A DNA stretch of 64,000 nucleotides from Taxawa tesnikishii (nom. ined.) (lineage: Eukaryota; Ascomycota; Dothideomycetes; Dothideales), in contig JAPDRO010000015.1 in NCBI GenBank assembly GCA_030247885.1, positions 434,001 to 498,000 on the forward strand, in the 5' to 3' direction. Made by a program: the position numbers and the translations under genes. The notes under the pieces were generated by a model. It made no database searches. It saw only the letters and a list, made by a program, of their open reading frames with translations, and had not been told where the DNA came from. How positions within the stretch are numbered: position 1 is the stretch's first letter; the number at the start of each line of letters is the position of its first letter. This document shows positions 58,536 to 64,000 of this stretch, piece by piece.

Positions 58536-58946
58536 TCAGGTGAAGAAAGCTACTTCAAGGTACAGCAGGTGATAGGCAGCACTCACAGCACTGTGGAGCA
58601 CGGCCGGAACTGTCCGTGTATCAAGGGTGTGCTCGAGTCGAGACCTCGGACAAAGGCGTCCCAGGTCAAATAAGCCTTGCTCGAAGTACTGAGCTGGGCT
58701 CCACAGTTTCCAGTCCATTACTTCGTGTCTGCTGATACGGGCCGCTCCGTAGGACGTGGTGAGACGCGACGGCAAGTACATCTGAAGCAGACGCTGATGG
58801 TCAGGGAACACGATCCAGACGTCCGTGCTCTCTCGATAGAAGGATGGCGGCCCCAGACTGTGAGGGAGTTTTGTACGTTCAGAAGGAGGAGGTAGGAGTA
58901 AGAGAAGGAAAAGAGACAGCAAACGGTTGCCTAGAATTGGGGCCAT
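58536..58946 (-). CDS. Hypothetical ORF with signal-peptide-like start
   Basis: A 136-codon ATG frame whose first 22 residues (M-A-P-I-L-G-N-R then L-L-S-L-F-L-L-L-L-L-P) look like a secretion signal. The remainder matches no family I know and has few cysteines. It has no close partner gene. It could be a small secreted protein or a chance frame. Confidence 0.28.
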   Translation of the reverse strand: MAPILGNRLLSLFLLLLLPPPSERTKLPHSLGPPSFYRESTDVWIVFPDHQRLLQMYLPSRLTTSYGAARISRHEVMDWKLWSPAQYFEQGLFDLGRLCPRSRLEHTLDTRTVPAVLHSAVSAAYHLLYLEVAFFT

Positions 58947-59294: not shown

Positions 59295-60049
59295 GGCGCC
59301 GGGTGAAGGTCCAGAGAGCAGGAACGGCCCAGAAGTGTGACCGTCAGACGGTGTAAAACGTCTCGAGGGTTTGTAGGGCTGCATTAGAGGGCGTTCGAGC
59401 GGTCACTGATGACATGCATCGATATGCGGCGTCTGCAGTCATGATTCGCTTTCGGCCTATCCCCAAATCGCGCAAAGAAGAAGCGATGACATGGGCGTGC
59501 GCTGCAGGCCAGTCGTTCAGCCCCCCAAAACGAAGGGTCCTATACGTCGTCTTGCAGGGACTGTTGATGTCTTTTCCGATTGTGAGTGGTCCAGTATTTG
59601 AGGAGGCGCAGTCTTACGCTCGAGATTCTCGCGTTCGCGCTTTACCTTAACCGGCCCATTGACTTCTAAAATTGGCGCAAATTAAGGTCCATTTCCCGAC
59701 CGCACCCACAACTTAGCCTGCCATTCTCTCACCTTGTGCGTGTACGGCCCACTCTCGTCATGGCGCTGTCGAGAGGCCTCATTCGCAACAGTCCGTCCAT
59801 GTGCCTTTGCGGACCCGCACCGGGTGGTGGATACCCTCGTCTGACATTGACAGGGCTGAAGGAGCACTTGGCTACGAAACGGGATGCAGGCACGAAGAAC
59901 GCAGAGGCTCATGGCCAGGAAAGATGGCGCAGGCACTGCGGCTGTGACCTCTTCCCAAGTACACGCGGTATGACTGTATCCATTGTTAGAGCTTGCTGCA
60001 GGTCCGGAGTATGGCTTGCCTGGCGTTGGTGTGACGGCTCGCAAAATGG

Positions 60050-60056
60050 TATATAT
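60050..60056 (+). promoter_or_regulatory. TATA box upstream of the micro-ORF cluster
   Basis: TATATAT followed by a C/T-rich tract (about 60068-60110) and an A/C-rich leader. This is the order seen at strongly expressed fungal promoters. It lies 214 bases before the first micro-ORF ATG. Confidence 0.4.
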
Positions 60057-60269
60057 GGTATGGTCTCTTGTTCCTGACCATCCCCCGTTCCTCATCATCC
60101 AGTCTCCCACTACACACATAACAGCTCAGTACATAATCACTTCCACACTTCAACGCTCCTTCCAGCAAACGCTCTCTGTACACTTCACATCAGCATAATC
60201 GTCTCAATTTTCTTATCTCCGTCTCTAATCCCAACCACCACCACCGCAAACACCACCATCTCATACCCT

Positions 60270-60293
60270 ATGGGCCGCGGAGGTTACAACTAA
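60270..60293 (+). CDS. Micro-ORF 1, peptide MGRGGYN
   Basis: Seven codons: ATG GGC CGC GGA GGT TAC AAC then TAA. It is the first of three micro-ORFs within 400 bases whose products all end in G-R-G-G-Y-N. The leader is A/C-rich, and the ATG is followed by GG as in good fungal start contexts. The codons differ at third positions from those of micro-ORFs 2 and 3. No known peptide of this sequence comes to mind. See findings. Confidence 0.55.
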   Translation: MGRGGYN

Positions 60294-60414
60294 GCACATC
60301 ACATACACGTCTAGAAGACCTTCTGCACACAGACACGAGGCGTGAGCGCTTTTGAGCCTGTTTCCTTTGTTTTCAACTTTTCCTACACTTCCCACTTTCA
60401 ACTCACTTGCAACA

Positions 60415-60438
60415 ATGGGCCGTGGCGGATACAACTAA
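60415..60438 (+). CDS. Micro-ORF 2, peptide MGRGGYN
   Basis: Seven codons: ATG GGC CGT GGC GGA TAC AAC then TAA. The peptide equals that of micro-ORF 1 but CGT, GGC and GGA replace CGC, GGA and GGT, so the two are not a recent copy held by chance. The start context CAACAATGG is close to ideal for ascomycetes. It is preceded by its own C/T-rich stretch (60350-60410), so it could also be reached from a separate start site. Confidence 0.55.
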   Translation: MGRGGYN

Positions 60439-60611
60439 GCGTCTCACAAAGACACCGGGCCTCAAGGAAGAACCGGATTCAAGTTCTCTTTTCCACCACC
60501 AGAAACCAGCAAACACCAATCGATCACAACCAACCAGCCAACCAACCGCGCCGCCTTGTATAATTATCCGAGCATCACTATCATACCCATCGCTAAACCC
60601 CTCCCATCAAA

Positions 60612-60671
60612 ATGGTCCACGCACGAGCCGGTCAGATGGCAAACGACGACGGCCGCGGCGGCTACAACTGA
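60612..60671 (+). CDS. Micro-ORF 3, 19-residue peptide ending GRGGYN
   Basis: Nineteen codons: M-V-H-A-R-A-G-Q-M-A-N-D-D-G-R-G-G-Y-N, then TGA. The last six residues repeat the end of micro-ORFs 1 and 2, in codons GGC CGC GGC GGC TAC AAC and with a different stop. An internal in-frame ATG (60636) could give an 11-residue form. The start context CAAAATGG is good. Confidence 0.55.
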   Translation: MVHARAGQMANDDGRGGYN

Positions 60672-61602
60672 GCCCTTAATCCTCTCCTTTCCCTTTCCCT
60701 CTCGGTTATCGCACCCTCGTTCAAATCACCGCGACCCATTGCCGGCAATGGAGACGGATATCCGGATCTCTTCCGAGCCGGCCCTCTGGTGGCAACCGCA
60801 TCTTCACCCTTTCGGCCGGCTTGCTGTTTCTCACGTTTTGCGTTAGACATGTGTTCCCGCTCCTTTGATAGCGTTCAGCGAATCTGTTCTTGTTTCTTGC
60901 ATCGTCGTTACAAAAAAGCATAGCGAATGGCGTTCCTGTCTGGTTTTCGGGATTGCGGCTTTTTCCCTTCTGGTCGAGATTTTTCCCTGTCGTTCCTGAA
61001 AATCTTTGGGTTCATTTGGTTTGGCGTTCAGCACGGTGTTGGTTGCGGTATCGAAGCATTTTTTGGCGCTTTCCTGGCGAACGAACACGCGACAGGGGAC
61101 ATGGGGGCATAGACCGGCATTTCATGGGCGTTGGAGTTTGAGGGTTTTGGAGTGATTGATGAGCGAGTAGTTTAGATACCTAATCTGAGTATTCCTTTTC
61201 GTTCTCACTTCTTCTTGAACACCACTTCACCGTACCTCGTCACCTTCGTCGGGCTTCGTCCTTCCGCGGCAGCAGACATCGGGTCCATAACTCCAGAAGA
61301 CGCGCACACGCCGCTCCATGGCATTGAAGTCTCATTGACCAGCAGTGGGTGACCACAGATCCATCAGTGAAGTGAGGTGGAGTGGAGTGAAGTAAAGTGG
61401 AACAAAGTGATGGATGCGCAACAATTTCCATTCCGACCGGCGCCATTTCCTAACATGGCATGAAGGTATCAAATGCGTAGCCTCAAGGCGCCTCTAGCGA
61501 AAACATTTTTCGAACCGTAGCCCATCCCATGCTCGAACGCTCCAAAGTATACCATGAGCCGATGTAAAAGGACAAACCCTACTCGAGAATGTCCACAAGT
61601 AT
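60672..61602. other. Region downstream of the micro-ORFs
   Basis: No long ORF continues from the micro-ORFs. Segment 60840-61140 is T-rich on the plus strand, fitting a 3' UTR. About 61366-61410 carries short imperfect GTGGAGTGAAGT-type repeats. The right end is the MAK16 3' region. Confidence 0.35.
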
Positions 61603-62619: not shown

Positions 62620-63024
62620 TGCGGGTGTTGGCGGGTGACGCTGTGCCGGTGGAGAGAAACAGGTGGGTAAAAGAACTACTTTTCGTTGATAGAGAGCGAG
62701 ATTTGTATAGCGCTCTTGTAGTAGATTGCACGAGAGTCACAAAAACTAGTCCGGTCAAGAGAGAAGACAGTGGACAGTGAAAGTCGGCGGGCGGCCAAAA
62801 GTTCGAAGCACATGCAGAAGGAAACTTCCAAGGGCGAAATCTTGGCGCTGACCTACAGGGTCTCGGCTGCGGAAGCCGAAACGTGCAATCTAATCTAATA
62901 TAATCTGATATAATCTAATCTAGTCTTTGGTGCATCCATCTCTAGACGATACTCGGAACCATAGGTAGTGGCTGCAGCACCTCTCATCTACACTTTGCAC
63001 CGCTCGTCCGCATCTTCCTCTCGG
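62620..63024. other. Divergent MAK16/MSS1 promoter
   Basis: About 400 bases. At 62886-62924 there is a short run of TAATC/TAATATAATC repeats. No exon was recognised except a possible N-terminal extension of MSS1. Confidence 0.4.
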
Positions 63025-64000
63025 ATGCGCAGAGCTTGGAAGCCATGGCGAGCATTATGCAGCGGCTCGCTGGCACCCGGAACTTCATTGAACCTCCGTG
63101 AAGCTCCGTTCAGAGTACGCCCTCTATCAACTGCTCCACTACAATCTCTTTATACAACAAATTCCCTCTCTGTCCAGTCCCGGAACATCTCAGCAGATTC
63201 TCAATCTCAAAGCCTCGCTGCAGACCCAACCATCTATGCTCTCTCCACAGCCCCCGGCCGCGCCGCAATTGCCGTCATCAGAATATCCGGTCCAGCGTGC
63301 AGCACCGTCTACCACGCCCTCTGCCCGTCGCGCAACCTCCCAAAGCCTCGATACGCAGCCGTCCGGACTCTCTATGAGCCCGACCAAGCACCAAGCCCGG
63401 AAAACGTTCTAGACTCGAACGCGCTCGTTCTCTACTTTCCCGCTCCGCGCACCGTGACCGGAGAGGATGTTCTGGAATTGCACGTCCATGGCGGCCAAGC
63501 CACGGTCAAGGCTGTGTTATCCGCAATTCCCAAATGCTCGAAGATAGGGAAGGTGGAGGAGTCATCAGATATGCGGAGCCGGGCGAGTTCACCAAACGCG
63601 CATTCATGAACGATCGACTGGATCTGACGCAAGTGGAAGCTCTGGGCGACGTGCTCTCCGCAACTACGGAGCAACAGCGTCGTCTCTACGTCCGCGGGAC
63701 CACGAACCAGCTCTCGCGCCGTTACGAAGCCTGGCGCTCGCAGCTGCTGTACGCGCGGGGGGAGCTGGAGGCGTTGATTGATTTCTCCGAGGATCAGTAT
63801 TTCGACGAGTCGCCTGCTCTTCTAACAGCGTCTGTGGCCGAGCAAGTGCGCAGGCTGCGGACGTTGGTACAAGCGCACAGCAAGAATGCCGTCCGAGGGG
63901 AGCTGCTGAGGAACGGGATAAGCATTAGTCTTCTCGGTGCGCCGAATGCGGGGAAGAGCAGTCTGTTGAATAGGATTGTCGGGCGCGAAGCAGCGATTGT
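63025..64000 (+). CDS. MSS1: Mitochondrial tRNA-modifying GTPase Mss1 (MnmE family), cut by the window end
   Basis: With Mto1 it modifies wobble uridine 34 of mitochondrial tRNAs. The MnmE N-terminal domain starts D-P-T-I-Y-A-L-S-T-A-P-G-R-A-A-I-A-V-I-R and includes G-E-D-V-L-E-L-H-V-H-G-G. E-P-G-E-F-T-K-R-A-F and R-L-D-L-T-Q-V-E-A-L follow. The G1 loop G-A-P-N-A-G-K-S-S-L appears near 63940, just before the cut. The frame needs one more G in 63547-63549 (or a nearby run) to read I-G-E-G-G-G-V-I-R-Y. ATG 63025 gives a presequence rich in R, S, L and W; an upstream GTG-initiated extension is not credible. Confidence 0.92.

Follow-up and report, generated by a model that had tools for sequence, protein, structure and literature searches.

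Tandem short reading frames that share one peptide motif are best known from arthropods, in the insect gene tarsal-less. The tal gene of Drosophila has four frames for peptides of 11, 11, 11, and 32 residues, of which peptides 1 and 2 are identical and all contain a common core (PMC3136413), and tal of Clogmia encodes peptides of 11, 10, 11, and 29 residues and a further peptide of 39 residues (PMC6124123; PMC sources are cited here from excerpts of their text). Our analysis concerns a fungal locus with three micro-ORFs whose peptides, of 7, 7, and 19 residues, share the C-terminal sequence GRGGYN. As in Drosophila tal, the first two peptides are identical and the last is longer (PMC3136413), and the spacers of 121 nt (micro-ORFs 1 and 2) and 173 nt (micro-ORFs 2 and 3) are similar to the first two spacers of the Clogmia gene, 111 and 126 nt (PMC6124123). 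The locus thus has in common with the tal/pri/mlpt genes a tandem array of short frames with one shared motif, here at the DNA level only, and the single-exon, polycistronic structure of those genes has its counterpart in a locus that is intronless by prediction. An earlier note on this DNA had drawn the comparison with tarsal-less; it stands for the layout but not for membership. The core is LDPTGXY in tal/pri/mlpt and GRGGYN here, so the locus is not a member of that family; it also differs in lying in a fungus, in the lengths of its peptides, and in that no second peptide type was seen. No ATG frame of 59950-61250 encodes a further peptide with a GREETSSCRRRR domain, a feature of tal genes in the excerpt of PMC6124123.

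Two other described systems come close. Peptide-dependent uORFs and the GCN4/cpc-1 leaders resemble the locus in their very short tandem frames, long leader, and reinitiation-compatible spacing, and the conserved sequence of the locus abuts the stop codon, as in peptide-dependent uORFs. The difference is the main downstream frame, which was not found here (60080-61350, up to two introns). The uORF peptides of GCN4 are not known to share a motif, and GCN4-type regulation is not known to require a conserved peptide. Proteins of the Par32/Amu1 type (DUF3602, PF12223) share with the locus a GRGG followed shortly by N, and a single Par32 protein contains 3 to 6 repeats of the motif G-R-G-G-X-[AG]-N (PMC4501750). 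The locus peptides, in contrast, carry one motif each, which is one residue shorter and C-terminal. They fail the repeat pattern, and we rejected their membership in the Par32/DUF3602 family by the motif, the peptides being too short for Pfam.

The window, that is, the whole stretch of 64,000 nt that was analyzed, comprises bases 434001-498000 of contig 7 of a genome of 29,367,862 bases in 34 contigs. The three GRGGYN-ending frames described in the earlier note were reproduced in the sequence with their coordinates, reading frames, codons, and stops (Table 1). Good start contexts had been reported for all three ATGs; we find this for the second and third but not for the first. Micro-ORF 3 contains a second in-frame ATG at 60636, from which MANDDGRGGYN would be read.

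Table 1 Features of the micro-ORF locus and its surroundings (positions in the window)
Feature	Position	Strand	Basis or remark
Es2-domain gene, upstream	56663 onward	+	Pfam
TATATA box-like element, presumed core promoter	60050..60055	+	Sequence; transcription start presumed downstream
Presumed 5' leader, ATG-free, C-rich, G-poor	60063..60269	+	207 nt: 84 C, 55 T, 53 A, 15 G
Micro-ORF 1, MGRGGYN-TAA, frame 0	60270..60293	+	Start CCTATGG, C at -3, weak
Micro-ORF 2, MGRGGYN-TAA, frame 1	60415..60438	+	Start ACAATGG, A at -3, good
Micro-ORF 3, MVHARAGQMANDDGRGGYN-TGA, frame 0	60612..60671	+	Start AAAATGG, A at -3, good
Presumed 3' untranslated part	60672..61190	+	End guessed from sequence
Mak16 gene, downstream, convergent	62619-61603	-	Pfam
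Frame with TrmE GTPase N-terminal domain, beyond Mak16	62968 onward	+	Domain scan

All four ATGs within 60063-60671 share the reading frame of a GRGGYN core. Further ATGs lie upstream at 60046, 60055, and 60060, so that the in-frame status of all ATGs depends on the start site: a transcript starting upstream of 60046 would place three other ATGs first. The ATG-free leader is not unusual by itself, since 40% of dinucleotide shuffles also lack an ATG.

The motif, read with its stop codon, is unique to this locus within the host genome. A degenerate GRGGYN-stop pattern matched three times in the 29,367,862 bases, each time in this 400-bp stretch and on one strand; the reversed pattern used as a control had no genome match, and about 0.1 matches per genome are expected by our own arithmetic with uniform bases. 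Without the stop, the pattern had six matches, three of them elsewhere, and these were rejected: one reads GSGGYN, one lies in a 40-codon open frame, and one in an RGG-rich frame. The RGG-rich open frame (219 codons, host contig C18:254982), which we take to be U1-70K-like, has GRGGYN internally. An RGGYN-TRR pattern had one match besides the three, which was discarded as it reads TGG within a 506-codon frame. Two of the four genome-wide matches to an MGRGG[YF]-type pattern are at the locus, and the other two were not accepted as family members: that on C13 sits 500 codons inside a 639-codon open frame, and on C15 a 57-codon open frame continues past MGRGGFE. Allowing up to 3 mismatches, the shared 23-mer GGCCGYGGNGGNTACAACTRAGC was found at five extra places in the genome, all at 3 mismatches, versus three for the control; no place elsewhere in the host genome was reported at 1 or 2 mismatches. 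A search of the host genome with cistron 3 gave no paralogue at E <= 10. When ATG frames of 6 to 60 residues on the same strand with stops at most 600 nt apart were compared, no other pair in the window shared its last 4, 5, or 6 residues, and in 60 simulated strands as long as the window, the mean was 0.05 pairs sharing 4 residues, with none sharing 5 or 6.

Beyond the host genome, the peptide pattern with codons CGN, TAC, and AAC had no match in the collections genome_contigs and viral_contigs. The neighboring Mak16, used as a control, likewise found no relative in either collection, and the empty peptide searches are therefore uninformative about fungi. A wider pattern gave three single matches in viral contigs, two of which read MGSGGYN; the viral-contig match to MGRGGYN lies out of register inside an 860-codon frame and was taken for chance. 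In a protein database, Mak16 had 4464 relatives among 8000 scored candidates (nearest named relatives by score among the best 120 of the 4464: Dothideomycetes sp. NU459, 74% identity, and Aureobasidium melanogenum, 71%), which places the host among the Dothideomycetes and probably close to the Dothideales. A protein-database search with the peptides joined into an artificial query returned no orthologue, frames of 7 to 19 codons being unlikely entries there. Among the matches listed in a literature search by title and start of abstract there was no such fungal gene, and the string MGRGGYN was not found in the literature text searched. GRGGYN was found there in four papers, among them two on yeast Hrp1, whose PY-NLS contains these letters (PMC8140498, PMC9311884, excerpts); that signal, however, is longer, basic, and ends in PY inside a protein, and the micropeptides lack such elements.

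In place of orthologues, we compared the three copies with each other. The 21-base cores are identical at 18 of 21 positions in each pair. Variation is confined to four columns, namely codon position 3 of R, G, and G (CGC/CGT/CGC, GGA/GGC/GGC, and GGT/GGA/GGC in copies 1/2/3) and position 2 of the stop codon (TAA/TAA/TGA), and every one of these differences is synonymous. Only about 25% of random single changes in the core would be synonymous, and by our own arithmetic the chance that at least five changes are all synonymous is about 0.001. The 90 bases on either side of the copies have 20 to 33% ungapped identity, and local alignments of the flanks stayed within the shuffle range in all six tests (lowest P 0.066, for copies 1 and 2 downstream). 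The spacers had been described as unlike in the earlier note; the flanks of the copies resemble each other no more than shuffled DNA does. With the cores fixed and the spacers shuffled, an in-frame ATG for all three arose in 0.0056 of 5000 trials. Taken together, the random flanks, the 18/21 cores, the synonymous-only differences, and the in-frame ATGs support the proposal, also made before, that selection acts on the translated product.

Codon usage was scored against the window background with a model trained on nine frames that were picked for their length of about 300 codons upward; Pfam was used to check two of the nine, and the nine themselves score 0.02 to 0.31 log-odds per codon. Micro-ORFs 1, 2, and 3 score 0.33, 0.29, and 0.37 per codon, values that rest on 33 codons and correspond to the 98th, 97th, and 99th percentiles among the window's 678 short ATG frames, a set that takes in frames within genes and the three micro-ORFs themselves.

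The conservation does not end with the peptide. A feature missed by the earlier note is GC after every stop (TAAGC, TAAGC, and TGAGC, at 60294-60295, 60439-60440, and 60672-60673), which is perhaps a termination context. All copies use one and the same codon for the first G, for Y, and for N; of these, TAC and AAC are the common choices for Y and N (0.67 and 0.77). The GC after the stop and the invariant G, Y, and N codons could possibly reflect a nucleotide-level constraint or a common origin of the copies.

We propose, with a probability of roughly 0.55, that the locus is an intronless polycistronic micropeptide gene with a tarsal-less-like layout, translated by leaky scanning and reinitiation, whose GRGGYN acts in trans. 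A single capped transcript with three tandem cistrons would begin just past the TATA element at 60050. Some scanning ribosomes would pass over the first ATG, whose context is weak; with a weak first start and strong second and third ones, the order permits leaky scanning. Ribosomes that have translated a 7-codon cistron could go back to scanning and initiate again after another 121 and 173 nt, yielding all three peptides, and cistrons of this size followed by more than 100 nt permit reinitiation. In the excerpts, fungal leaders are an established case of ribosomes reinitiating downstream of short uORFs (PMC5972666), and reinitiation is usable for fungal bicistrons, but through a different, 9-bp signal (PMC10352335). 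Cistron 3 would display GRGGYN at the end of a longer tail, and its N terminus, which differs from that of cistrons 1 and 2, is a point against the proposal. Met-Gly starts are substrates of methionine aminopeptidase, so we infer that the initiator methionine is removed and that cistrons 1 and 2 yield the identical hexapeptide GRGGYN. The shared part is this C-terminal hexapeptide, a free tail in cistron 3, which suggests a ligand read at its C terminus; GRGGYN would be the functional part, a small linear motif that binds a cellular protein in trans.

The broader claim, that this is a fungal polycistronic micropeptide gene convergent with insect tarsal-less and that each message provides several copies of a gene-encoded hexapeptide acting in trans, we hold more tentatively, at somewhat less than even odds. 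If it is true, fungi have independently evolved a tandem-motif micropeptide gene, whose peptides are shorter than the tarsal-less ones, and annotation misses entire fungal genes whose cistrons are all below 20 codons. Neighboring short frames with identical last residues would then be a simple search rule for all fungal genomes, and the locus a compact system for testing the translation of multi-cistron messages by fungal ribosomes.

The main alternative is that the micro-ORFs are cis-acting uORFs, in which ribosomes ending after GRGGYN at TRA-GC pause or reinitiate in response to a signal, thereby controlling a frame farther downstream on the same transcript. We consider this unlikely, though it is the strongest of the competing explanations: the conserved part consists of the peptide end, the stop, and the next two bases, which fits a role for termination and would explain the conserved stop context better than the micropeptide gene does, and the spacing fits reinitiation as known in fungi (PMC5972666, excerpt). 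What this explanation lacks is a main frame. The earlier note stated that no longer ORF follows; the micro-ORFs are in fact followed by ORFs of 32, 24, and 61 codons, but none is convincing, as their codon log-odds of -0.02, -0.35, and -0.11 per codon look non-coding. The 61-residue ORF was also rejected as a main product by homology, no protein-database candidate sharing enough words with it. A longer or spliced gene was sought with common fungal splice signals and at most two introns; the 38 models with 0 to 2 introns in 60080-61350 gave a longest frame of 61 residues and never extended any of the three peptides. The convergent Mak16 gene takes up the minus strand from 62619 to 61603, which likewise speaks against uORFs of a longer message, and GCN4-type regulation is not known to depend on a conserved peptide.

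Less likely still is that the repeated 23-mer is a nucleic-acid element, an RNA- or DNA-binding site with incidental reading frames. Such an element would account for the two post-stop bases, identical in all three copies; also in its favor, the ATG of the third copy is not adjacent to the motif. It would not account for the synonymous pattern, in which the variable columns fall on codon positions 3, 3, and 3 and on stop-codon position 2, and the in-frame position of the four ATGs of 60063-60671 and the restriction of close copies of the 23-mer to this locus also argue against it. RNA folding around the three motifs was no better than in shuffles (z -0.52, 1.23, and 1.63), and 59600-61600 contains no Rfam family at its gathering score, the one sub-threshold match reaching 19.4 bits versus 58. 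A bacterial promoter and terminator scan was inapplicable, the host being a fungus.

A special case of the micropeptide gene, which we regard as improbable, is an effect on ammonium transport, exerted by peptides that imitate the GRGG motif of Par32/Amu1-type (DUF3602) proteins or compete with it. GRGGYN equals GRGGxGN minus one residue, and in yeast, binding to Mep1 was compromised when the arginines were changed in all four motifs (PMC4501750, excerpt). The host has three DUF3602/Par32-like matches, on C34, C12, and C34, that read GRGGAGN, GRGGTGN, and GRGGAAN in open frames of 204, 152, and 106 codons, and seven ammonium-transporter matches, some of which resemble exons of one gene. Against this, GRGGYN lacks the small residue before the final N, Par32 proteins bear several motifs per chain (PMC4501750, excerpt), and GRGG is a low-complexity word that also occurs in the RGG-rich protein on C18. 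The Par32 likeness may serve as a lead on a partner of the peptides, the motif pattern itself being absent from them.

Chance, whether as partial duplication debris or as an accidental repeat without function, is very improbable: although just 18 shared codons from one genome are at hand, the genome pattern, the pair simulation, and the flank tests all speak against an accidental origin of such a triplet, and with flanks free of any trace of duplication the cores would have needed preservation.

The window contains other small features near the locus. On the minus strand at 58536-58946 lies a frame of 136 residues with a hydrophobic, signal-like N terminus and no Pfam match; it may encode a small secreted protein or have arisen by chance. 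Near the TrmE-like frame, the frame at 63098-63409 had no match in the domain scan, and upstream of the TrmE-like frame, at 62887-62923, there is a short imperfect run of TAATC/TAATA repeats.
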